A stretch of 24,678 nt of DNA from Pleurotus djamor (Eukaryota; Basidiomycota; Agaricomycetes; Agaricales; Pleurotaceae), in contig JAPEVF010000676.1 in the NCBI GenBank assembly GCA_029747585.1, forward strand, positions 1 to 24,678. Direction: 5' to 3'. Shown in pieces: positions 2,940 through 23,031 of the stretch. The notes under the pieces are model-generated. The model made no database searches. It was not told the DNA's origin and saw nothing but the letters and a program-made list of their open reading frames with translations. Numbering within the stretch: the first letter of the stretch is position 1; each line of letters begins with the position of its first letter. The translations under genes and the position numbers were made by a program.

Positions 2940-5900
2940 ATGGCCTCCTCGGACGATACCACGCTCGATACTGGCTTAGGCGGCGTCAAATTCCGAGTGC
3001 TTATCATTGGTAAAGCCAATGCTGGCAAAACTACCATTCTCCAAAAAGTCTGCAACACCACCGAGCAGCCAGTTGTGATGGATTCCAAAGGACAATTGGT
3101 GCGTTCCTCACACGACTTGTCGCTTGTGTCCAAGAACCTGAGCAGTTGGACAGTTGGATCCCGCCATCCTTGAGCCATCCAAAGGGGTAGTTGGTATGAC
3201 TGATAACGAGTCAACGTAACTAAAGAGCGGCTATATAGCGCGGCGAACATGACATCAACTTGCAGTATGTATTCAAAAGCCAGGATCGCTTTGTATTCCA
3301 CGATTCGCGTGGGTTTGAGGCTGGTAGCACCCAAGAGCTGGATGCTGTGAAGCAGTTCATTGCCGAACGCGCGAGCCATCCTCATCTCAACCTCCGTCTC
3401 CACGTAGTCTGGTACAATGCTCTTCACCTGATCGTGTCGCCGGTGATTTCCATACGTATAGGTTTTGCATTCCTACGGACACACCGCGTATTCTCCTTGA
3501 GGGCGAAACGAGCTTCTTTGAAGAATGTCGGAAGAGCCACGGTTCGTCAAGCCTCCCGTTCTCCATGTCGGTTCATTCACCTTGCCGTGGTAGTTCCCGT
3601 TGTCGCCATCTTCACAAAATTCGATTTTCGCCATCACGAGGCTATCGCGGCGCTTCTCGACGAAGGGCTTAGTCGTCCAGATGCTCGACGCGCAGCACCT
3701 GAACGAGCAAAAACGGATTTTGAGAAAATCTACATGGACAGATTGTACTCGCGCGCTCATCCCCCATCGTCCCATGTTTTCCTCTATGGTTAGTTACCAT
3801 GAAACTCACTCCTTCAGAGCCTCTTTTGACAGCATAACAGGAATGCAGAAGCCATCCGCAGATTGCACGGACTTGATTCGTGCAACAGCCGCGTCTCTCA
3901 AAGGATCAAACCTCCAAAGCCTTCTCATTTCCACGCAGATGAACCGCATCCACCTTTGTGTCGAGTACGCCTTGCGTCAGTGAGTTATCTGCTCCGTTTT
4001 TCTTTTTAACCACACGTTCACGCTATTTCAGCATCCTTGAGAATATTCAGCGCAAGACAGGGGACCTCCGCCGTCACGAAATGAAGGACATAGTTTTCAA
4101 CTGCATGATATGGTTCCCCCTCGACCAGGTGCGCCCATTCTAAATTTCTTGACACTCTAACCGCGAAAGGACGCATTGAAAAAACAGACGGTATTCCCTT
4201 TGCCCACATTATGAACAGCTATTAATTATCCTTCTAGGATGTACGTATGATACTCACACAGCTTCACAAACATTCATCCTTGGATTAATCATCTTTCAGT
4301 TGGTATGTTGCGATTTCGTGTATCTGGCTAAATGACTTACACCCTTCATTAGGTGGTAAGTACTTGCGTTTTGTATCATTGATGATCCTCGATTTTATGA
4401 GATCCTTATAGAAAGTAAGTTGTACCCACTTCACGCACTTTCGCATGCTGACGCTGTCCTGTCAGGCCGTAACTGTGCGTTTAAACCTGATTTCCTCGAG
4501 ACTTGGCCCTGACAGTTGGATTACATCCTCCAGAAACTTGTAGGTTTCCGTCCCTTTCTCCTTTACTTCGCTGACGCTTCTATAGAAAGTACGTACACTA
4601 TAACTTCTGAATATCCCCGCCCATACTCATGACACCCAAACGCAGGAAGAAACGGTCGATACTGTGAGCATTCCTCTTCATCGACTCAGCAAAGATAATT
4701 CTCATGCAGTATTTTGGTATTCAGGAAAGAGAATATGTAAGTCACCGCAAATTGGTGGAAAGACTTAATCACCTGGAAGGCTCACCAATTGGCTAGGATA
4801 TAGTGCGTCGCCATCTGTGTCCAGAATTGACGGCGTTCAATTCTTAGATGTCTAGAACAAGGTTTGATTGATTTCATGTGTGCATGGCGAAATATATTGA
4901 CTTCCGCTCGTAGCGCAAGGTTACATACTTCCATTTCTCTGAGAGCTTCTCTTTCTGATCTGTACTATTTGTGAGGGCAGTATGTAAGTGGATCAATTTC
5001 CTCGATGACCCTTCCCCTAACTATGTTCTTGCCCCTGTCAGGTTGTGAGTACCTAAGTTCGCCTGTTTGCGAAGTCGATGATTCATTCTGTCCATAGAAA
5101 GTACGTCCCCCATTGGCACACTGTCTACCTCCGTGACTTACAAGAGATCCCCTCGTAGTCCGTAAGTAAATTGTATTGATAAACCACCATATCCTCAGTC
5201 TCGGCCATAGGTTGTCAGTGCATGCATAACCCAATGCTCCCTACCCATTACTCACGCTTCGACTTTCCCGATCTACGAAGCATGTGAGTTTGATCATATC
5301 TTGCATCAGCATCAGTATCATGACTCAACGGTGACATAGCCTGTGAGTTCGAGTCAAATCCAGATTGTTCTCAACTCTTGACCTGAATAAACATATCCTC
5401 TCATCAGTGGGTAAGTTGTTGTTTCTTCTTCTTTTCCCCCTCGGACCACCACGCTCATCTATAAATAGGAAGTGAGTGAGACTGTCGCTGACTCAGTACA
5501 TACTCTGATCTCCCGCCTCCGTTTGGTGCAGCATGTAAGAACCCCCTCTCATCAATTGTTCTCCCCTTGCTGACATCCTCCCCCAGTGGGTTCGTTACCT
5601 CATTCCTTCTCATCGGACTCGGCTAACGAAGTCTTTTACCACGCAACTAGTGGGTGAGTGATATAATCTCCCCCTCTTGTCGTCATCTTCTTGTTTTTAA
5701 TGTCCTTGTCCAGAAAGTGAGCCCGCTCAACCTACCAGTGTGTTGCTCATGCTAACCTCGCCTAGTGGGTAAGCGATATGTTCCTCACGCTACTCATGTT
5801 CCTTCATGATCCGCTAGGATGTATGTTTCCTTCCGTTCCTTCTTGAGACCTCTCTGACTACTCGTGATTGATCGATTAGTCTGTGCGTACAAACCGTTGT

Positions 5901-7420
5901 TACCCTTCGCGCTCAAACTCAAATCCATGGGAATACCATCTCGTAGACTCCAGTGCGTGGTATCTAGGGTCACCTCGCTCTCGTTCCTGCCTAACTATAT
6001 CTCAGGACTCGGTCAGCCTTTCCCACTTTCCCTCGGTCACGCTTATCAACCTTAACGACCCCATTTTTAATAGCAAGTACGCGGCTTCTTTCCAATCTAT
6101 ATAACGTACACTAAGCACGGATAAAATGTAGTGGGTATGTACTCCCCTCTCACCTTCTGCGAGAGAAGATCAGACGTCCACTCTCTCCACCTTAGGCAGT
6201 AAGTTTGATCGTTCTAAAAGTTTGACCTTCTCCTGATTTTCTGAATTAGACAGTAAGCTCGGTGCTACCTTCAAGCTATTTGAACCTTTTTCACCCTTTT
6301 CACCATACATAGCCAGTGAGTCTTCGAACGCTCGCGAATCCTTAATATTGTGCTAATTTTCGTCATTAGTGGGTAAGTAATGTACCCGGCGCTCTAGCAG
6401 TTGGCAAGTATTGATAGGGCTCTTCCATCCTTTAGATCGTAAGTCGCTTCCATTGTCATTTCCATCGCGCTGATTGTTCGACTTGACAGCACGTGAGGCT
6501 TTTACTCTACTTTATGTCACTCGTCTAGACGAGAGAATTGGTTCTAGGAAGTAAGTTACCGTCGTTTCCAACATCCCATTTTGCATCTGAGCATCCACTA
6601 GACCGTCAGTATTTTACCACTTCGAATAAGACGTGTTGACCCCCACGGTCGTCTCACTGAGATTCGATGAATAGCTCGTACGTTATTTGCCTATCGCGTC
6701 GACAGCTTTTTTTTAGCCGAAATGTTTCAGTTTGTAAGTCACTTAAACGATCGGATTGTTTAAGCGTCCTCATGTCTCCCATAGAACGTACGTCCAGTCA
6801 TTCATTTTCTCGCTGTCATTGGCTCGACTTACTGTTTCGTGCACAATCTAGGATGTACGTGGTCCCTGATCCACTGGTAAAATTCACGGCTGAATGATTG
6901 ACGATAGGCGTACCTCGAGAAATTGGTACAGCTCTTGCTCATCGCCTCTCAGAATCCTGATACCGTGATCGATTTGTATAGGCTGGTCAAGACACCCAGG
7001 ACCAACGTCCACCTCCATCCCCGAAAGTAATGCAGCGAAAGGTAAATATATCTCCCCGCAACCTATGTTCTTCTTGAGTTACGGAATCAAATGGCAGGGC
7101 TCCATCCACCAACTTCAAACAAAGGATCAACTTGCACGCGTTGCCACTTGTTTGTTACCCATCTGGCCAACTCCATCGCGGTCCCTAACATGTTGATGTC
7201 AGGCACCGTCGTTTTACTCGCCTTTATCTGCAAGCCAGAAAACAAGCACGTGAATCTTGAGAAGAAGCTCCATGCCTTCTTCAAGGGCGAGAGCGCAGAA
7301 CTCGAGAAGATAACCCAAGCGATTGATAAAGTCGTAGAAGACAACTTCAACGACCCCAAGGAACTGCTCGTTGGTCTCACAAAAGTTGCGTTAGACCCGG
7401 AGTATGCCCTTTCCATGTAG
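2940..7420 (+). CDS. P-loop GTPase (G-domain protein), 56 exons with a central array of single-codon exons
   Basis: Predicted 479 aa. Exons: 2940-3098, 3154-3186, 3239-3411, 3462-3541, 3594-3788, 3841-3979, 4032-4128, then 45 tiny exons (separate entry), 6908-6985, 7036-7041, 7098-7149, 7203-7420. G1 is GKANAGKT (residues 24-31), G3 is DSRG (86-89, in FVFHDSRGFEAGS) and G4 is TKFD (156-159, in VVAIFTKFD). These three motifs in this spacing define a TRAFAC-type GTP-binding domain common in Agaricomycete G-domain proteins; its cellular role is unknown. Residues 293-362 come from the micro-exon array. The C-terminus (363-479) is helical-looking, with AYLEKLVQLLLIASQNPD and a hydrophobic patch TVVLLAFI, and it ends in LDPEYALSM. 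Every exon joins in frame across 55 introns and no motif is lost, so I take the gene as live. The start is the first ATG, with a TATA-like box upstream. Confidence 0.85.
4129..6907 (+). other. Array of 46 tandem introns separated by 45 micro-exons, 37 of one codon
   Basis: Introns of 46-70 nt follow one another, each starting GT (mostly gtaagt, gtgagt, gtacgt, gtgcgt) and ending AG, many with CTAAC/CTGAC 10-30 nt before the AG. Exons by first base: 4188 ACG, 4238 GAT, 4300 TTG, 4353 GTG, 4412 AAA, 4466 GCC, 4516 (24 nt), 4586 AAA, 4646 (18 nt), 4710 (27 nt), 4797 GATATA, 4856 AACAAG, 4914 CGCAAG, 4981 TAT, 5042 GTT, 5098 AAA, 5159 TCC, 5211 GTT, 5281 CAT, 5340 CCT, 5408 TGG, 5469 GAA, 5532 CAT, 5587 TGG, 5651 TGG, 5714 AAA, 5766 TGG, 5818 GAT, 5880 TCT, 5947 ACTCCA, 6006 GACTCG, 6074 CAA, 6132 TGG, 6196 GCA, 6250 ACA, 6313 CCA, 6370 TGG, 6436 ATC, 6490 CAC, 6548 GAA, 6602 ACC, 6675 CTC, 6731 TTT, 6785 AAC, 6852 GAT. 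All are in phase 0 and none is a stop. The weakest calls are the donor at 4469 (gtaact), the acceptor at 5280 (aag) and the six-base exons. Confidence 0.82.
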
Positions 7421-8199: not shown

Positions 8200-11100
8200 A
8201 TGTCTTCGAGTACAATATATAACGTGAGTAAGGGTCCTGTGGGCAGTTACTTGTGGCACAAAATCGAGGCTGGTGGCGGGCGAAGAAACGGACAATATGG
8301 TCCGTGCGTTGGATTGGTTCCCTGTAGTGTGGCGTATCAATGTCGTTTGCGGTTGGACGCAGCTTCGACGCAGCTTCGGCTATGAATTCTCAACGATAGC
8401 GCCCTCGGCGGTGCGCTGGGGTCGTTCGGTTTGGATTACGAGACTGCGTTGCAATTGCACTACGCTGCGGATACGAACGTCCCAGATGCAGGCAGGGCAC
8501 CAGAATAGCTGTGGGCAACATATTTCTAGGATGAACTTGGATTTCTCAAGTTATACCCAACGTCCCGAAACGCCTTGCCAAACTTAGTGAGGGGGAAATT
8601 CCAAGCACAAGTTGGGCTTCTCACATGTTGTGAAAACGGCGACGCGGGACTATGAGAGCGGCGATGATGCGCGGGTTGTCACGTTGGAATACCTTTGTGC
8701 ACGGATTCCGCTTGGTGCCTAGCGTCGGGGGTATTGGCAATGTCTTCATCCTTCTACGATTTCACATCTCTATTGGGCGGGCGCGAAGGCGTCGCCCCCT
8801 TCTTATTCGTTCTTTGCTTCTATTGCCCGCAAGCTGACTTAATTGTCGACTTAGCACAGGAGTTTGCAGCCTACGGGCCCTCCAGTACCAGGACCTAGTC
8901 AGCAACACAGTCATGCGAGACTTAACGAATCGTTCGAAACCATTCGACAAGAGTTTGACCTTCTAGCACAAGAGATTGGGGCTGTTAGAGCGCAGAGAGA
9001 TGACTACGAAAACAAATGTGCGCTTCATTCCTACTGGTACACAACACCTTGCTCACCCAAACCTTGTCAACATAGTGGCGGCTCAAATAAATGAAATCGC
9101 TTCATTCCGCCAGCAACTCGTCGACCTCGAGGGTAAGCACGCCAAGGTTCGTCAACAATACGAAGACGAGCTGGCACGGATGCGGAATGAACTCGTCGCA
9201 ACTCGGCAATCCCTGCCCAATGTCGGGATACCCCCTCAACCCCAAGTTGGCCCGGGTTCAGTTGGTATACCAGGGGGTGCTGTCCCCCCAGGACCTCCTC
9301 CGCCTGTCAGTCATTCAGGCTCCGCGGTGCCAAGTTATAGCGAACCGTATTATCGCGACGGCATGCCTGGGAGGGATAGAGATAGATTAGTGGAAAGGGG
9401 TGGAGTTGATCGTGCTGAGCGTGTTGAGCGTGAGCGGCTTTCCGAGAGGGACCGGGACAGAGGAGACAGGGACAGGATGGATAGAGACCGTGATCGAGTT
9501 GTCGACCAACGAGATCCCAAACGTCTCAAACCAGACCGTATTAAATCCGATCGTCCAGGTAAGTTTTGTTTTTTTTGGTCACTTTCAACAAGTGAATAAA
9601 CTTCTTCAGATCCGTACAGCCCGTCGCTAGGCCACGGACAAACGCCGAAGCTCCAACACCCACCTGCACCAGGCGTAGGACCTGGGCTTCCACCACCACC
9701 ATCTGCTCATGGTCCCTATCAAAACTCGGGCCCAAGTAATCCTCCCGGCCCCCCGCCTCTGAGTGAACCTAGCAATGGCCCAGGCGCCCTCGTCCCGATA
9801 GGACCAGCCAGTTTTCCGGACGATCTTGATCCTCACAATGTTCCACCAGAGTACAAGAAAGAAGCATCCGATTGGTTTGCCGTTTTCAATCATAAGGTCA
9901 AGCGTGTGCTTGATGTCAACCTTGTCCACACCCTTATGCATGAGAGGTTCGTTGTATCTGTGTCTTCCACCATGCTTGAAAGCTGAGGATGGACATGAAG
10001 TGTGGTGTGCTGTGTCCGATTTTCTGCCGATGGAAAATATCTTGCAACAGGATGCAACCGTACCGCTCAAATTTTTGACACGAAAACCGGTGCGAAGACG
10101 TGGTATGTTTCATGTGATTTGAGCGCCTAAAATAACTCACGTTCTTTTCCAGTGTGCTTGCAGATGAAGGAGCTGGAAAAGCCGGCGACTTGTACATTCG
10201 CAGCGTCTGCTTCAGCCCTGATGGAAAATATCTAGCTACTGGAGCCGAAGATAAGCAGATCCGAGTGCGTCGCATCCTCATACGTTCTCTCTGTGTCTCT
10301 GACCACCTTTCTAGATCTGGGACATCAACAAGCGACGCATTCGAAATGTCTTTGATGGCCACCAGCAAGAAATCTACTCGCTCGACTTTTCCCATGACGG
10401 GCGGCTCATCGTGTCCGGGTCTGGCGACAAGACTGCGCGTATCTGGGATATGGAGTCTGGGTCGTCGAAAGTACTCACAATCAACGATCCGGATTCTCTG
10501 AACAATGATGCCGGTGTGACTTCTGTGGCAATGTCGCCGAATGGTCAATTCGTTGCCGCTGGCAGCCTTGACACGGTGGTTCGGATATGGGATGTCGCTA
10601 CGGGTCTGCTCGTCGATCGACTGCGTGGACACCGTGATAGTGTGTACAGCGTTGCTTTTACACCTGACGGGAAGGGGTTGGTCAGTGGTAGCTTGGACAA
10701 GACGCTGAAGTACTGGGACGTCAGCGCCTTGAATTCGCCTGGACTAAAAAGCAAGAAAGAAGGTGCGAACGGCGGTCCTCTTAACGTTCCTAGTGCATTG
10801 ACGCGGAAGGAAGGAGATAAGCAAAGTCCATGTACGATGAACTTCACCGGACACAAGGTATGTCCGAGTCGCACTAATGGTGGTGGCGAGGTGCTCACTG
10901 GCGTTGTCAGGATTATGTGTTGTCCGTCGCTGTCTCTCATGACGGACAATGGGTGGTCTCGGGTTCGAAAGACCGAGGCGTACAGTTCTGGGACTCACGA
11001 ACGGCGACCGTTCAGTGTATGCTCCAAGGACACAAAAACTCAGGTGGGTTCACGTTGCCTCGTTCTTGTTGTCATGTACTTACCTTTCACAGTCATCTCC

Positions 11101-11240
11101 ATCGACCTCAGTCCTGCTGGAAGTATTCTTGCCACGGGCAGTGGTGATTGGCAAGCGAGGATATGTATGTTCTCCCATATCTTGACGCCAATAGTGACTG
11201 ATGATACACCTGTTCCACAGGGAGTTACAACCCGATATAA
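8200..11240 (+). CDS. TUP1: Tup1-type WD40 transcriptional corepressor
   Basis: Predicted 657 aa from exons 8200-8223, 8870-9017, 9076-9558, 9610-9946, 10001-10102, 10153-10264, 10315-10857, 10911-11043, 11093-11164, 11221-11240. Tup1 works with Ssn6/Cyc8 as a general nuclear corepressor brought to promoters by DNA-binding proteins. The N-terminal coiled-coil (tetramerisation, Ssn6-binding) domain is visible as [20 protein letters not shown] followed by [16 protein letters not shown] proline-rich linker and a repetitive Arg/Asp segment (about residues 155-210) follow. The signature [17 protein letters not shown] then leads into seven WD40 blades, ending in [10 protein letters not shown] and a short SYNPI tail. 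All seven blades are complete, so the propeller looks intact. The start exon encodes only MSSSTIYN and needs a 646 nt intron; this is the least certain part. An ATG at 8737 (MSSSFYDF) is a weaker alternative, because its only donor would be gtcgcc. Confidence 0.92.
8224..8869 (+). other. Long first intron of TUP1 (inferred)
   Basis: A strong gtgagt donor at 8224 and the acceptor tttgcag ending at 8869 give a 646 nt intron, about ten times longer than the others in the window. No alternative coding exon with family features is visible in it. It could hold regulatory sequence or an unrecognised small exon. Confidence 0.5.
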
Positions 11241-11711
11241 CGAGCGTGCGGACACCCCTACTACCTACACCCATGTTGTTTTTGCTTTTGTGTACGCCTA
11301 TACCTATATAACCTTACATATATCAAGTTGTTACCCCCCGTCGCATATGTTCCATATGTTCTTANNTCCGCTGTGTTACGTGTATTTAGTTCTCTTATCC
11401 CCACCAGCTTTCTATCCCTGGGACTGTACTCATGACGGCCTTATGCATGGCCCTATCCACAAATAAGGCTACTTTCCGTGTGCTAGCAGTGGCGATGTAA
11501 GGAGGTGCGTTTTCATTACCTTGGTGGTCTTATCCTGATGTTTGCTGGTTTCGCGCTTTCTCAAGGAACTCGTGTCAGACATCTCGCCTTGAATGTTTAT
11601 GGTTCCCCGCCCATGCAAAGTCTGCAATGAAGCTATCATAGACCCCTTGGAAGCATCACAAGCATGCACCGTCTTACCCAATCTCGACATCGTTTTCGAT
11701 AGGAATGACTA
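11241..11711. other. TUP1 3' region and intergenic
   Basis: AT-rich 3' region containing ACATATATC near 11316 and two undetermined bases (11365-11366). No supportable gene: the long open frame that crosses the TUP1 introns and continues here is a read-through artefact. Confidence 0.5.
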
Positions 11712-12411: not shown

Positions 12412-12936
12412 GACCTCATCTTAACTCTTATCACAGTGATTCGTGATTGAAGACGTTTCCTTGGTGGAGACGATCTAGAAAGCTTTAGGGTACCGCGTCT
12501 CTCACTGTACTTACTCGAAGTTTGTGACTGTGGGAAACACCGTTCACACAATCAATACAATTGGGTGTACACTAGCAAAGACTAGCAAGGACTCAAATTT
12601 CAGGTTTGAATTCGAGCTCAAGTTCCAACGTCGAACATTGAACAATTCAACGTTGCTCAACCTCGCTCAACTTTCAAATCTCAACGTTTAACAGCCACGC
12701 TAATCCAACGGGCATCATTCTTTGCATGATTCCATCTTCTTGCTATAATAATGCACGCCACGCCTCAGCTGGTTCCGTGGATGTACGCTAGTCGAAGTTT
12801 GGAAGGGTGGTTGAAGATGGACGGATGCTCGACGTTTCATATGAAGGCGACCGCAGGAGTTAAATTCGCTAGTTGGTCCTGAGAACTGTCGCTGGAGCTG
12901 AGCCCACGAGGAGTCTACAAAGCTAAATACCCAACA
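12412..12936. other. Intergenic upstream of the TRK gene
   Basis: No gene seen. Around 12590-12690 the sequence is rich in short imperfect CTCAAC/CAACGTT words, giving a low-complexity, weakly palindromic patch. TATAATA at 12744 is far (about 190 bp) from the ATG. Confidence 0.45.
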
Positions 12937-15900
12937 ATGGCCCACATCCACCGTGTTCTTCGTTCTCCCCTACAGTCATCCTACAACTCCGAGAGACTTT
13001 CAAGTAATTCTTCCCCCGGCGACGAGGACATGAAGGACAGTGTACTTGGTCTTGCACCACAAGCTTTAGATTCGTGCGCATCGCAATCCCAAACGGTCAT
13101 TGCTGACGCACCGCGTCAAGGCCTCTGGCATACAATTAAGAAAGAGAGCACTTTCTTTCGCATTCACTTACTCTCATTCGCCTTTATTCCTCTCATCGTA
13201 TCGGGCGTGTTTTACGCATGCAATGGGCGGTTTCACATCAGCTATCTGGACTGCTTGTTTCTTTGTTATTCATCGATGACGGTGACTGGCTTGTCGACAG
13301 TGAATTTATCGACGACAACGGCGTTGCAGCAAGTCATCCTGTATTTCTTGATGATGATTGTGAGCTCCTTCCTTTTCATTACGGACCTGCGCTGAGATGG
13401 GCGTTATAAGGGCGATATTTCAATGGTATCGTGGGTCATGGTTCTGGTCCGCAAGTGAGCATCTTGACTAGTTCTACATGACCTCCCCGATTCATGGACA
13501 GAATAAAGGAACTACTTCCGTACACGATGCAAGTATGTTGCTCTCCAACATCGCCCCAATCGGCGTGGCACCCTGCTATCCATCAAGCGCACTAGAACAA
13601 TGTTGTTAAATTCAATCTCCTCGCCTATCCACGCTTTCCGGTTAGGTCAAGAGGTTCCGAACCCCCATCCTGGTCCGGATGATATGGAAAAGGGTATCAC
13701 AGACTCGCCAGCTGTCCCATCTTCTGCCAATCACCCCGGTGTCGGCGACGTTGCGGCCCCACCAAGCCTGATAATTGTGATTGACCAACCAGCACAACAG
13801 CCAACGCGATCGACATCAGACAACGCATCCCCAGGTTCTAGCTTAAGATCGCCTGTCCTCGCGGATGCTAGACGGAGTCCGCATAGTAAGAATAAGCCTC
13901 AGGAGGTAACACTCAATATACGAGAAGCCAAGAGCGTCACTGGCTCTCCCAAAGCAGCTAGCACGGCTTTGACCCAGTTACCCCTCAATGTCGAGGACTT
14001 ATCTCCACAAACAGCGTCTTTGACTTCGTCCCTTCGTCCACCACCTGTACAACGAAGTGAGTAACCTCGAACTCTTCATGCACGCTAACTTATTATCGAG
14101 TAGCCCCTACCCGATCTCAACCTCGCCAAGGAGTGACGATGCTAGCCTCCCATCAGCGGACCTTGAGTGTCCACGGCGCACCTCAACTTGGTGACCAAGC
14201 AAAGTTTCAGAACTACGGCGGGTTTCCGGGACCCCTCAACGTCACTCAGAAGGCTATTCAGTATATATCCCCGAAGACCTATGCCAAGCTTGAACGCACC
14301 CTCACCATATCTTCGACTCAAACTATCACTGGCGTCAATGAAAACGGAGAAACAGCTCTCACTCCCATATCTGGAGGTGGACCTTCTCCTCACACCGTGA
14401 GGCGACCTGGATACCCTTCACCTTTACATGACGGACAACCTCGCATAAGCGAGGAGGGAAATGCTATGGATCGGTTCATATCCGGCATGAACGCAAAGGT
14501 CGTTTCCTGGCTTTCCTTCCCACTCACTGTCGGGAGAAACTCTGATATACACGTGGAGACGCTTACGGATGAACAAATCGAAGAAGTCGGTGGCGCGGAA
14601 TATCGTGCGTTGAGGTTGTTGAGTTATCTCGTCCCTTCAGTAGGACCATATCTTCTACATTTTGATGGACTTGGCTAACGTTGGTTGGCGCAGTATTTCG
14701 TCCTCACTCAACTATTCGCGTACCTACTGTTCGCTCCGTGGTTGTCCGTCACGCACACATACGATGGAGTGTTTGAAGCCCAACCTAGGCTCGTTCAAAA
14801 GCCTTGGTTCAGTGTTCCCCTACTTCTCTTTCGCGGCACCATGCTCAATTGCTGATACAGGTTTGCGTTGTTTCAAGTGATGGGCGCTTACACAGGAGGC
14901 AGATTGTCGCTGGTCGACTTGTGCGCAGAGGCCTTTTCCTCAATACATGGATGCAGCCTGACAGCCTCTTTCCTCTAGGGGGATGGTGCCGTTTCAGTCG
15001 GCGTATCTAATGATGGGTTTGTACACCTCAAAACTTCTTTCCGAAACTTCATATGAACGACATGGTGCAGTTGCCTTGATGTTCGTCATCCTAGCGGGAA
15101 ATAACGCTTTGGTGTGTTCCAACCCGCATCCCGACTCACTATCATTGAACCTGTTCCTTCTAGCCTATCTTGTGCGTCTATCACCCTTCGGTTGGCTTTT
15201 CCGCTCTCAACAGATGACATATCTGAATAGTCTTCGCTTTACTATGTGAGCATGACATCGCTCACCATTACCTTACCATGCTTAATTCGCGTTTCTTTCC
15301 CTACGTACAGCTGGATCGGCTATAAAGTCACGCGCATCGAATCAGACATACATAAAGCCTTGGAATTCCTGATAGACCATCCTCGCAGGTTTGTTAAGTT
15401 GTCAGGAATATCACGGAGCGTCGGCTCACTCCATGCGGCAGATGTTTCATATACCTGTAAGCTACTTACCCAGTGGTGCAGGGAAGATCCTTCAATTAAG
15501 CACCTCCATTCCTCTAGATTCCCGAGTCACCAAACGTGGTTTCTCCTCATATGTCTCATCCTCTTCAGGTCCGCCCTCTGTGACTTTCGGAGTCGCTGAA
15601 CTTTCTCTGATACTTTCCCACCTAGTGTCATCGAATGGGTGGCCTTCGAAGTTCTGAGTAAGCTTCTCCTCAAAGCCTCCTAATGCCGGGGTTAGCCTCA
15701 CCCGTTCATTAGATATTGGTCTTCCCGCATTTGAAGCGCTCAGTGTCGGACCTCGCACGATCGCAGGGTTGTTCCAAGGGCTTTCTGCACGTACCTCCGG
15801 GTTTGCCATCGTACCCATCGCAAACCTGGCACCAGCAGTTCAGTCAGTTGTACGATTCACTCCACCCTCCTTCAACTCATCTTCCCCGCAGGTTCATGTA

Positions 15901-16742
15901 CGTCATCTTGATGTATATTGCTGTAAGCAACTGCACTTGGTCAGCCTAGATGTTATATTAACTCTAAGTTTAGGTTTATCCGGTATGTCTCGAACACTTT
16001 AGCCACCGTACTAGATTCTGACCGACATATTAGGTCGCCCTGAGTATTCGTTCCACCAATGTGTATGAAGAAAAGTCCCTTGGTATATTTCAAGTTCCCC
16101 CGGACGAGAAAGATCAAGAGCCCACAAACTTGGAGAGTCTTCCACCTCGTGAGCGGGTCGGAAAGTACCTAGATTGGCATCTTCGAAGACAGGTGTCAAA
16201 CGGTTCGTCCCCTTTCCCCTAAATCAACTGTCACTGGCTATCTAAGTTGTCTGAATAGATATGTGGTGGTTGGTTTGGTCCGTGTTCTTCATCGCAATCA
16301 TCGAGAGGGGCTCGATTATGGACGAGAATAAGAAATGGTTTGACATGTTTCGAGTCCTCTTTGAGCTTGTCTCGGCCTTTGGTGGTATCGGCTTGACTCT
16401 GGGGGTCCCCTACGTCAGTCTGAACAACTTTATACTGCTACGCCATGACTTACGCTTCGTGATCTAGGATAACTTCTCGTTTTGTGGTGCTATGAAGCCA
16501 TTATCCAAGTTGATCATCATCGTTGTAATGTGCGTGGACGGTTTGATGATGATGTTGCCCACGTATGGTCGCTGATATGATTCATGAAACTCAGGGTTCG
16601 CGGGAGACATCGTGGCCTACCTCTCGCTGTTGACCGCGCAATCTTGTTGCCGACAGAGTTGAATAGACACGATGTATGTACAACGCCCTCTCANCCCAGA
16701 CGCCTCCACCCCCATCAACTTGAACCCCCCTGGCGCTCCTGA
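12937..16742 (+). CDS. TRK1: TRK-family potassium transporter
   Basis: Predicted 901 aa in 21 exons: 12937-13359, 13411-13454, 13509-14056, 14104-14639, 14694-14806, 14861-14920, 14979-15016, 15071-15111, 15164-15171, 15231-15245, 15311-15388, 15442-15456, 15518-15568, 15626-15657, 15713-15842, 15892-15922, 15974-15982, 16034-16202, 16259-16413, 16468-16529, 16595-16742. It is a plasma-membrane high-affinity K+ uptake protein with four M1-P-M2 units. The pore glycines are visible in TVTGLSTVNLS, YTGGRLSLVDLGMVPFQ, SARTSGFAIVPIANLAPAVQ and VSAFGGIGLT. A long hydrophilic loop (exons 3-4, residues about 160-510) separates units 1 and 2, as in fungal TRKs. The signatures KALEFLIDHPRR, FPSHQTWFLL and VRGRHRGLPLAVDRAILLP are also present. 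Several exons are tiny (8, 9, 15, 15 nt), yet all join in frame. The third residue of YTGGR is Arg where I expect Gly. The C-terminus is uncertain: a gtatgt donor at 16674 may add another exon. There is an N at 16694. Confidence 0.9.
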
Positions 16743-18938: not shown

Positions 18939-19582
18939 TCTCGCAATGCCTTCAGCAACCGGAATCCACGCCTCCGTCATTTATTGATTGTCTCGTCGGA
19001 CACGCTTTCGTTAGTCAGTCGGGTTGCCTCAGAGTAGCCCTCTCTTATGAATGTGGCGACTCTTCCTTCAATAAGACTTCCGATTTAGACCTCAAAAATT
19101 CCGTTAACTCTAGACTCTGGAGCGCGGCAAGCTCCAGCTCAAGTTGGACCAACGGGCGAATGTGCTTGAGTACTAAATACTAAGGGCTAACCATATCGTC
19201 TCGAAGATCAGATCGACAACTTGATGCTACGACAATCCACTGCCCAGATATCTACGTATCAACCCATGGGTGTTGCTAGAGATGTAGCACGTCTTCATGC
19301 CGCATCATACGGTTCGTTCAGTTGATCTCTTTTCATTGGTTACATCAACTGATTCCTATTTTAATCAAGGCTCCACCTCGGGTAACATCGTAACAATTCA
19401 ATTTGTGAATGGTGGCCGACAAAGGCCACAGAAGAACTTCTCACCAACACAAAAGCCCAGTCGGGGATACACCGAGCTCCTTCCAAAGCAAAAGTTTTGA
19501 GTCACAAATCCATCGCGCTTGAGAGTGGATTCCCATCTCTCTTATACCCAGACTATGTGAGGAATTCTATGTATCAACTATC

Positions 19583-20691
19583 ATGGCGAATCCTCTCGCT
19601 GGCACGTCTGCTGCACTCTCCGACCAGACTCTGCGTCGCTCCGTCTTCAACCAGTTCTCCTTGGAAAAAAAGGTTGCCCTTGTGACAGGTGGTCAACGCG
19701 GGATCGGCTTGGAAGTCGCCCTTGGGTTCGCTGAAGCTGGCGCAGTCGTCTACTGTCTCGACCTTCCCACAGATCCCGACAACGACTTTAAACTTGCTCA
19801 GGATTTCGCTTCAGCACTTCCCACTTTGGCTCCTGGCGTCGAGAACGGACGCCTTGAATATGTCAGTGGCGATGTTACTGATCAATTACAAATGTGGAAG
19901 ATCGCCGAAGATATTACCGCCAAGGAAGGCCGCTTGGATATCTGCTTTGCCAATGCAGGTATATTGGCCGGCGCTGAGTGTTTGAAGTATCCTGCCGACG
20001 CGTTCAACAAGGTGCATTTTCCCATGCCGAGTTAATTTGACTACCTGGGCTCATACTGGAGGCTTGATTGAAGGTCATGACCATCAACGTCAACGGCGTT
20101 TTGCACACCGCGCAGGCGGCTGGGCGTCAGATGGAAAAGTTAGGCATCCCAGGAAGCATCATCATGACAGCGAGTATATGCGGTACCACTACGATCAAGG
20201 TGAGTTTCTCCTGCTGTATATATTACACGGAATCTCATGTGACTGGTGTTTGACAGAACCAACATTGGCTCGCGTATCAGACTAGCAAGTCTGCTGTGCT
20301 TCAGCTGGCTCGATCGATGGCTTGCGAACTCGGCGTCAAAGGAATCCGTGTCAATACTCTCAGCCCCGGATTTATCGAAACCAAGTGCCTGCGCTTCTTT
20401 TTTGTGTCCAATAATCCACACTAACCAGAACTTCGCATTTTGCTTGTTAATACAGAATGACTGCTGCCTTCTTGGATCAAAACCCCGAGGTGCGGAAGGA
20501 GTGGTCCGGTATGAACCCAATAGGCAGGCTCGGACGCCCTGATGAGCTGCGCGGTGCTTGTCTATGGCTTGCAAGCGGTGCCTCCTCATTCTGTACGGGC
20601 AGCGAGTAAGTCATCCATCAGTTCACAGGTAAATCAGTAATGTATGGCCGTCTACAGTATCAAGGTCGATGGCGGACACTGTGCTTGGTAA
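19583..20691 (+). CDS. Short-chain dehydrogenase/reductase, intact copy
   Basis: Predicted 288 aa from exons 19583-20011, 20074-20199, 20257-20384, 20456-20605 and 20658-20691. It is a cytosolic-type classical SDR that transfers hydride between NAD(P)H and a carbonyl or alcohol. Visible: TGGQRGIG cofactor loop (35-42), a CLDLP segment after the second beta strand, NAG (124-126), the catalytic Ser in IIMTASICG (177), YQTSK with Tyr192 and Lys196, and the NTLSPGFIETK motif. The C-terminus DGGHCAW is typical of the polyol/sugar SDRs (mannitol dehydrogenase, L-xylulose reductase-like), but the substrate cannot be read from sequence. There is no signal peptide or targeting sequence. It is the working member of the inverted pair; the other copy carries a nonsense codon. 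The start is the first ATG of the frame and matches the start of copy 1. Confidence 0.92.
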
Positions 20692-21336: not shown

Positions 21337-23031
21337 ATGCCCTCTTCCTTTTCATCTCTCCTTCTCTTCGCTCTCATCGCTTCATCACACGCAGCTACCA
21401 TCAGCAATGAACTCAGAAGGCAAATCATCGCCAGTAACAACTGTGTAAGTCACCTACCTGCTTCGATTGAGGCTATTTCTGATTGTGTATCCAATTCCAG
21501 TGTCAGGAACTGCTGACGAAGCTCGGTAGCGACAAGGTCATGCTGCCTGGCTCTGCCGGTTTCCAGGAGCTCAGCGCATCATACTACACCCCTCAGGAGT
21601 CGGAGCTCGTAGCACAATGCCGAGTGGCTGCTACCAACGCAGAAGATGTATCCGAGGCGGTCAAGATTGTCAAGCAAGGCGAATGCCCGTTTTCTGTACG
21701 ATCTGTTGGGAACATGCCTTGGGCCGGTGCAGCCAATATTGCCAGCCCCGGTATTGCTATTGATCTTCGACTCATCAATGCAACGACGCTGTCTGCAGAC
21801 AGGAAAGTTGCAAGCCTTGGTCCTGGAGGGACATGGGGTGCGGTATATGACACCCTCGACCCGTTTGGAGTCACAGTCGTTGGTGGTCGCTCAAACATCG
21901 TCGGTGTTGGCGGATTCATTCTTGGAGGTAACTGGATGTCTCCTATCAAACGCCGCGGAAGTCTGAGAGCGCTGATCACTTTGACAGGTGGATTCTCAAA
22001 CCTATCGCCCGAACATGGATTTGCCTCAGACAATGTCGTCAACTATGAGGTCGTACTCTCTGACGGACGCATCGTCAACGCGAACGCAGCCTCGGAACCT
22101 GATCTCTTCTGGGGTCTCAAGGGCGGGAGCACCAACCTCGGCATCATCACTCGCTTCGATGTCAAGGCATACCCGCTGACCCCCAAGTGGGGTGGATCCA
22201 GAGGACATACGATTTCTACTGGTCCCGCGATATTCGATGCCATGACACGGATGATGGTGAAGCTAAGGAACGATCCCCATGGTGGAGGCTCTGTTGTGTG
22301 GGGCTACAACGAGATCATGCAGAACGACACGATCTTCTCTTCGTATGCCTACCTCGGTGCCGACGTCTCGCAAACAGATCTTTTCGACGATATGTTGGCA
22401 GTCCCTTCCATTCCTGGCACTGATTCCATCCGCGGAAATACCAACCAACAGTCGTTGAGTGGAGAGGTCGACGATGCCTTCCCTTCTGGACTGCGGCGTA
22501 TATTTTCGACGGTCACGTTGAAGATCGATCTGGACATGGCAATTGGTATCTACGAGAAATGCCATGAACTCTTCGCCCCCCTCGTTGGCAAGCCTCAAGT
22601 CCAATGGTCTGCGTCATTCCAGCCCATTGCCGTCACACATCTCCACGCTACAGCTGCCAACGGTGGCACTCCCCTTGGACTCTCCCCTGCGGATGGCGAC
22701 CTCATTCGTGAGTCTCTCCCTGTTCATCCTTACGCACGCACCACTGACCATTTTTGTAAATGTAGTTCTTAACCTCAATACCGTGTGGGCATCCACGTCT
22801 GATGACGCTGCCATGGAGAGTGCTGTTCGTGGAGTGATCGCATGGGCTACTCAAGAAGCCAAGGCACGGAATGTACATCATCCCTGGTTGTACTCGAACT
22901 ACGCCCTACCTGAGCAAGATGTCTACACGTCCTACGGTACCGCCAACCATCTTCGCCTGAAGGGTATCCAGAGCGTCTACGACCCAGACAACACCTTCGG
23001 TCGCTTTTGGAAGGGTGGCTTCAAGCTGTAA
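21337..23031 (+). CDS. Secreted FAD-binding (PCMH/BBE-type) oxidase with an altered FAD-anchor motif
   Basis: Predicted 506 aa from exons 21337-21444, 21501-21927, 21988-22707 and 22766-23031. A signal peptide (MPSSFSSLLLFALIASSHA) sends it outside the cell. The FAD-binding 4 (vanillyl-alcohol-oxidase type) domain is seen in AIDLRLINATTLSADRKVAS, GPGGTWGAVYDTLDPFGVTV, GGRSNIVGVGGFILGGGFSN and LSPEHGFASDNVVNYEVVLS, then DLFWGLKGGSTNLGIITRFD. The C-terminus YDPDNTFGRFWKGGFKL is the berberine-bridge-enzyme-type end. Such enzymes oxidise sugars, alcohols or secondary metabolites and make H2O2. The motif that normally reads RSGGH, whose His is bonded to FAD, is RSVGN here (Asn107), and no Cys of a second bond is present. 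The cofactor may therefore be non-covalent, or the activity changed. The intron 21928-21987 is 60 nt, in frame and stop-free. Confidence 0.88.

Follow-up and report, generated by a model that had tools for sequence, protein, structure and literature searches.

Very small exons are known from animals, plants, and fungi. In schistosomes, the coding region of micro-exon genes (MEGs) consists mostly of very small symmetrical exons, and alternative splicing produces a pool of similar proteins from it (PMC4350168). Isolated micro-exons of 3 nucleotides (nt), as in Ncam and Drosophila TnT, demonstrate that one-codon exons exist and can be skipped (PMC8042270), and in RPS24, micro-exons of 3, 18, and 22 bp arranged in series combine into different isoforms (PMC11162997). 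Plant micro-exons of 1–15 nt have been overlooked by annotation, resulting in truncated or altered predicted proteins (PMC8831610). In fungi, P450 genes of the basidiomycete Phanerochaete have exons as short as 6 bp, with introns of 45–55 bp (PMC1184071), and a micro-exon switch is reported for Trichoderma Xlr2 in an account that states functional micro-exons in filamentous fungi to be previously undescribed (PMC11121469). For animals, intron definition has been proposed as the way in which micro-exons are recognized (PMC8378409). All of these papers are cited from excerpts. The present analysis concerns a gene in a 24,678-nt stretch of the genome of Pleurotus djamor (assembly GCA_029747585.1, contig JAPEVF010000676.1, positions 1 to 24,678 of the forward strand; hereafter the window). 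With good confidence, this can be read as a multi-exon GTPase gene in which 45 micro-exons likely encode a variable loop and would be joined serially through 46 short introns.

By analogy, the schistosome MEGs appear to be the nearest system in working. Like a MEG, the P. djamor gene contains a run of very small symmetrical exons, 45 of 3–27 nt, all multiples of three in length and in phase 0; unlike the MEGs, it belongs to another kingdom and another protein, its micro-exons are mostly single codons separated by introns of 46–70 nt, and the run would be confined to one loop of an ordinary GTPase. The excerpts on Ncam, TnT, and RPS24 concern one to three micro-exons against 45 in the P. djamor gene, and those on plants single or two adjacent micro-exons, compared with which the P. 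djamor array is far longer. The shortest exon in the excerpted P450 account is 6 bp, and arrays appear in neither the P450 nor the Trichoderma excerpt, whereas the P. djamor gene has 3-nt exons in an array. Stwintrons, as excerpted, share with the array that fungal introns are removed by consecutive splicing reactions; stwintrons are nested in each other, whereas the P. djamor introns lie side by side, separated by codons (exons of at least 3 nt). An identification of the array with stwintrons was considered and rejected: no splice element of one intron is split by a second intron, and an AG|GT junction is seen in the array of a paralog (on contig C1181, see below) alone. Among the matches listed in the open-licence PubMed Central literature, no array of such length was found.

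A script parse places 46 introns between positions 4129 and 6907, with GT-AG ends in 46/46 and lengths of 46–70 nt (mean 55.8). Between them lie 45 micro-exons: 37 consist of 3 nt and five of 6 nt, and the remaining three measure 18, 24, and 27 nt. The unit recurs about every 59 bp over 2.8 kb. The micro-exons total 210 nt of coding sequence with zero stops, and every exon length is a multiple of three in phase 0. A preliminary description of this DNA, made from the letters and a list of their open reading frames, had given the same numbers of introns and micro-exons and the same range of intron lengths, which the parse reproduces exactly; the frame, phase, and absence of stops that it claimed are confirmed as well. 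The predicted peptide is TDLVKA-LDYILQKL-K-EETVDT-YFGIQEREY-DI-NK-RK-YVKSVHPWEHWWKWDS-TP-DS-QWATPWIHETLFND. By their ends, the predicted introns look like short fungal introns of the U2 type, with GT-AG termini, the donor consensus GTRNGT, and a pyrimidine before AG: G occupies donor position +5 in 43/46 and a pyrimidine position −3 in 45/46. Candidate branch sites of the form YTRAY are present in 27/46 introns, where 14.8 would be expected and 500 mononucleotide shuffles reach 28 at most, and those of the form CTRAY in 15/46, with 7.6 expected and a shuffle maximum of 20; the branch sites of the preliminary description are found to this extent, as a moderate signal lying below both shuffle maxima. 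The gene is laid out as follows.

2940–3098, + strand: exon 1, with the start codon and the P-loop of the G domain (script parse; matched by the annotated protein P0001)
3239–3411, + strand: exon 2, G domain
3462–3541, + strand: exon 3, G domain
3594–3788, + strand: exon 4, G domain with the TKFD motif
3841–3979, + strand: exon 5, end of the G domain
4032–4128, + strand: exon 6, ending in ...FNCMIWFPLDQ, next intron in phase 0; annotated P0001 terminates just behind
4129–6907, + strand: micro-exon array of 46 GT-AG introns and 45 micro-exons (script parse, chain finder, shuffles)
4188–4468, + strand: six 3-nt exons (TDLVKA), ACG 4188–4190, GAT 4238–4240, TTG 4300–4302, GTG 4353–4355, AAA 4412–4414, GCC 4466–4468
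Within 4516–4919, + strand: LDYILQKL 4516–4539, K 4586–4588, EETVDT 4646–4663, YFGIQEREY 4710–4736, DI 4797–4802, NK 4856–4861, RK 4914–4919 (alternative parses possible)
4981–5882, + strand: sixteen 3-nt exons (YVKSVHPWEHWWKWDS) starting at 4981, 5042, 5098, 5159, 5211, 5281, 5340, 5408, 5469, 5532, 5587, 5651, 5714, 5766, 5818, 5880 (script parse)
5947–6011, + strand: 6-nt exons TP 5947–5952 and DS 6006–6011 (script parse)
6074–6854, + strand: fourteen 3-nt exons (QWATPWIHETLFND) starting at 6074, 6132, 6196, 6250, 6313, 6370, 6436, 6490, 6548, 6602, 6675, 6731, 6785, 6852 (script parse)
6908–6985, + strand: first ordinary exon behind the array (AYLEKLVQLLLIASQNPDTVIDLYRL), phase 0
7036–7041, + strand: extra 6-nt exon (RK), between introns 6986–7035 and 7042–7097
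7098–7149, + strand: exon in which the C-terminal helical domain begins, followed by intron 7150–7202
7203–7420, + strand: last exon and stop, with the C-terminal helical domain of the family (468 aa, one stop)

As for codon usage in the array, TGG is the most frequent single-codon exon (6/37, between 5408 and 6372); Trp accounts for 2 of 281 codons upstream of the array and 0 of 118 downstream.

Within the array (2.78 kb), AG and GT separated by three letters occur 49 times, or 17.6/kb, against 3.9/kb on the rest of the + strand and 4.5/kb on the − strand. With gaps of 0, 1, 2, 4, and 5, the pair occurs in the array 6, 3, 6, 4, and 7 times, respectively; a gap of 7 also peaks, with 40 occurrences, as it should if the donor is GTRNGT. 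The repeating (t/c)ag-NNN-gtRNGt junction of the preliminary description is borne out by 34 strict junctions (YAG-NNN-GT with a good donor), compared with a mean of 0.72 and a maximum of 5 in 300 dinucleotide shuffles, and the longest chain of evenly spaced junctions has 14 members against at most 2 in 500 shuffles. Furthermore, a chain finder that has no frame rule and allows exon lengths of 1–60 again yields 46 introns, and 44 of the 45 internal exons are divisible by three, the exception having a weak GC donor. The local chain score of the array is 26.4, against a maximum of 3.3 in 500 dinucleotide shuffles and at most 2.8 on both strands of four control stretches taken from this genome (10 kb and 1–98 masked bases each). 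The lack of stops is weak evidence alone, its chance being 0.18 for 37 codons. In one of the control stretches (L030, minus strand, about 421–553), a possible lone 3-nt exon TGG (AG-TGG-GT) lies between two short introns.

These counts bear on another reading, in which the 2.8 kb is excised whole, as a single long intron, or recursively in a few steps, the codons being mostly or always skipped and the inner sites serving as ratchet points for a spliceosome accustomed to short introns. The other eight introns of the gene are 50–140 nt long, and one of 2.8 kb might depend on stepping stones. Stepping stones need neither a 3-nt exon nor a frame, yet 44 of the 45 exons are multiples of three. In addition, gapless AG-GT is rarer in the array (2.2/kb) than elsewhere on the + strand (3.6/kb), and a donor and an acceptor are retained at each unit. 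Excision of this kind is considered very unlikely.

The array introns are mutually unlike. Their all-against-all similarity equals that of shuffles (means 6.59 and 6.51, respectively; maximum 14 in both), with 6.31 for neighbours, and Tandem Repeats Finder reports nothing in the array beyond one 21-bp repeat of period 9. The similarity between introns by which introners or a recent tandem duplication are recognized is absent from the array. Since the introns are unlike each other, yet keep G at +5 and the pyrimidine before AG almost throughout, the splice signals seem to have outlived the sequence between them. If the array grew by copying of an intron-plus-codon unit, this would have happened long ago. 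The uniform phase 0 of the array contrasts with the upstream part of the gene, where introns occur in all three phases and four of the six exons are not multiples of three. Such uniformity may come from the copying of one phase-0 unit or from selection for frame-safe skipping. The regular spacing of about 59 bp could also suggest a decayed tandem repeat or a burst of introners with boundaries that only resemble splice sites; with one short repeat at most and an intron similarity at the level of shuffles, this is highly improbable.

The array is situated between two domains of the protein family. The exons upstream of it encode a G domain (PF01926, 26 bits with a cut-off of 21.9; MMR_HSR1-like), and behind it the frame is continuous to a single stop at 7420, giving a full gene model of 468 aa. 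In a profile search with the C-terminal part of the family (last 100 residues, 12 relatives), the post-array frame ranks first among the 541 open frames of the window, with E 0.0011, and the spliced protein reaches E 0.0012, against E 2.2 for the next frame of the window; the top score (E 4e-7) goes to the peptide of the C1181 paralog, a close relative of one profile member. A first 3′ model with a stop at 7196, whose last exon holds two differences between the two copies of the gene (see below), was dropped, and the 3′ end was moved to 7420 because the frame there holds the C-terminal domain of the family. The preliminary description had followed the gene to 7149; the frame indeed runs through this position, while the gene extends further, with the 6-nt exon at 7036–7041 and a last exon to 7420. 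Judging from its sequence, the array appears to lie inside one gene constrained on both sides.

The complete array is found a second time, at C732:17044–19806, with 98% identity. This copy is probably the other haplotype. Between the copies, four introns differ in length (one with a masked base) and all exon lengths are retained. In the C732 copy, 45 of the 46 array donors remain GT and one is GC, and two changes at acceptor position −3 both leave a pyrimidine. None of the 111 nt in 3-nt exons is changed, compared with 2 of 99 nt in the longer micro-exons, one of which replaces L by F. The exons behind the array show 0/354 differences against 6/159 in their introns (p = 0.0008, a value not fully independent, since the 3′ model was changed after the between-copy differences had been seen).

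A homologue search returned 885 proteins at E <= 1e-5, and the family counts given here rest on the best 120 of the 885. The best homologue, ONZ45_g11110 of Pleurotus djamor, is 96% identical over 69% of the query and ends in ...WFPLDQVRPF, so that its annotated sequence runs on into the intron with which the array opens. A WFP-like motif is recognisable in the expected zone of 68 of the 120, and in 45 of these 68, a dipeptide V[SRC] begins at residues 2–6 behind WFP, against 5.5% of 8-residue background windows; as the rows are related, a binomial value for 45/68 is merely indicative. Because V[SRC] is the phase-0 translation of GTRAGT, GTRCGT, or GTATGT, many annotated models seem to read into a splice donor. 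The 23 homologues without V[SRC] include full-length proteins. Among these 23, P0017, P0045, P0049, and P0065 are from short contigs (1.35–2.6 kb) and may be transcripts; P0017, P0045, and P0065 continue through WFP into the C-terminal domain.

The annotated orthologues P0001, P0002 (P. pulmonarius), and P0003 (Hohenbuehelia grisea) stop just behind the WFP exon, as would be the case if the gene were a relic whose functional product is the 296-aa annotated protein reading into the first intron, with the array and the C-terminus decaying. The V[SRC] tails described above look instead like a failure of annotation, the contrast between the exons and introns behind the array (with the dependence of its value already given) points to constraint, and 46 intact introns with diverging interiors would hardly outlast neutral decay. 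A relic of this sort is very unlikely.

What the array encodes can be approached through the homologues without V[SRC]. P0017 and P0049 are 70% identical overall, and their segments behind WFP are unlike by eye. In an AlphaFold model of full-length P0017 (32 sequences), the G domain and the C-terminal helical domain are predicted with confidence, whereas the predicted local distance difference test (pLDDT) score falls below 50 in a loop at 304–337; this loop lies directly behind WFP at 298–300, matching the position of the array. From the unlike segments and the low-confidence loop, the array most likely encodes a variable loop of the protein family, and the preliminary description, which had taken the stretch for ordinary protein, is corrected in this respect. 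P0017 and P0049 also carry odd low-complexity runs behind WFP (REEEEYHHHHHYLEYEEYL; EELNKHARARAREELREEL), perhaps remnants of single-codon units that were repeated. The top structural matches of the P0017 model are immunity-related GTPases (IRG), at high root-mean-square deviation, a lead for a possible defence-type role. With the C-terminal part of P0017 as query, P0017 itself was the sole match, and no relatives were found in viral contigs.

There is a second array of this kind in the genome. A paralog on contig C1181 (L022, minus strand) has its own shorter array of 9–10 introns at the same protein position. Its preceding exon ends in VLVWFPYDL, nine residues identical to P0012 of P. pulmonarius, and the predicted micro-exons are AAC, GAT, CGGGCATCTGAG, TATTCT, AAACAT, GGA, GGA, and TAC (3, 3, 12, 6, 6, 3, 3, and 3 nt), all multiples of three. 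The best six-intron chain scores 9.4 against a maximum of 2.5 in 500 shuffles. Its first predicted codon (AAC, N) recurs in the P. ostreatus model P0021, where the sequence is WFPYDL-N-VR. Downstream of the C1181 array, exons match P0012 residues 416–484 (42% identity, E 1.3e-5). One junction is either AG|GT with a zero-length exon or part of a single 111-nt intron, a point in favour of excision by stepping stones. The loop peptides of the two genes give short local matches only (best 10 residues, E 0.15); to judge from the predicted exons, the position of the loop is kept between them and its content differs.

The end of the C1181 contig forms a 760-bp inverted repeat, 99.9% identical (L022 3324–4083 versus 5166–5925), in the C-terminal part of the paralog. 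On the + strand the copy is cut off by the end of the contig, and on the − strand it contains the complete array; the repeat is either a true palindrome or an assembly fold-back. At another contig start (L023, on C754, 1–420), a copy of the G-domain exon of the C1181 paralog diverges soon after by eye and looks like a truncated copy of it.

Exons of 3 nt would be too small for definition across the exon, and each short intron of the array would be recognized individually by intron definition. The preliminary description had invoked this mode; it fits the animal micro-exon work as excerpted (PMC8378409), and for the P. djamor gene we infer it. Neighbouring introns would have to be removed in turn, because their sites are 3 nt apart and two spliceosomes cannot fit at once. 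Every splicing round would add one codon to the growing upstream exon, setting the next donor against this codon. Since each exon consists of whole codons in phase 0, any exon skip would stay in frame, and a pool of loop variants arising from exon skipping would be either tolerated by the gene or exploited by it. By simple arithmetic, a per-exon skipping of 1% or 5% leaves 36% or 90% of the mRNAs lacking at least one micro-exon.

Several points weigh against serial splicing of the array. Its splicing is a prediction from DNA sequence. Five donors are off the consensus (4191 GTATTC, 4469 GTAACT, 4862 GTTTGA, 4920 GTTACA, and 5590 GTTCGT), the donor at 4589 is GC in one copy, and the excess of branch sites over shuffles is modest. 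Between 4415 and 4980, alternative in-frame parses exist (GCC plus 24 nt versus 9 plus 6 nt; 27 versus 12 nt). Neither in the 3-nt exons (p = 0.40) nor at the splice sites (p = 0.46) is the scarcity of changes between the copies significant, and the p value for the exons behind the array has the dependence stated above. At E about 0.001, the C-terminal profile match of the gene is weak. In the 7–9.9 kb taken, no array appears at three further loci with a G domain (C1371, C223, and C144). Finally, no contiguous homologue was found for the micro-exon peptide: a search of annotated proteins, for which the preliminary description had looked to orthologous genes and which used the first, partly wrong 3′ model as query, returned nothing beyond the G-domain end of P0001. 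On the other side, the presence of two genome copies, the array of the paralog, the position between two family domains, and the persistence of the signals support the preliminary interpretation in part, as a predicted array of micro-exons, with the correction concerning ordinary protein.

Other parts of the window contain further frames. Two similar ones in opposite orientation, at 761–1309 (−) and 19523–20035 (+), are presumably short-chain-dehydrogenase-like, to judge by their motifs. By their sequence, the frame at 8967–11466 looks like a WD40 repressor of the Tup1 type, that at 12883–16467 like a potassium transporter, and that at 21483–23031 like an FAD-linked oxidase.

If the gene is transcribed and spliced as predicted, it would be an extreme of serial small exons, with 46 rounds on 2.8 kb and sites 3 nt apart, and the array would be a natural substrate for studying in what order and how faithfully intron definition proceeds and where it is limited sterically. 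Arrays themselves are observed in one genome. The 45 of 68 homologues with the motif suggest that many annotated proteins of a large Agaricomycete GTPase family are missing their C-terminal domain, such arrays being impassable to gene-finding programs. Codon-by-codon micro-exon structures may therefore be widespread in this GTPase family and overlooked by annotation. More tentatively, and with a good deal of doubt, mushroom-forming fungi may possess an immune-type GTPase family with a loop written in single-codon exons, a structure that would have stayed hidden because gene-finding programs halt at the first of these exons. Any codon of such a loop could then be dropped in frame to give combinatorial loop variants from one gene.

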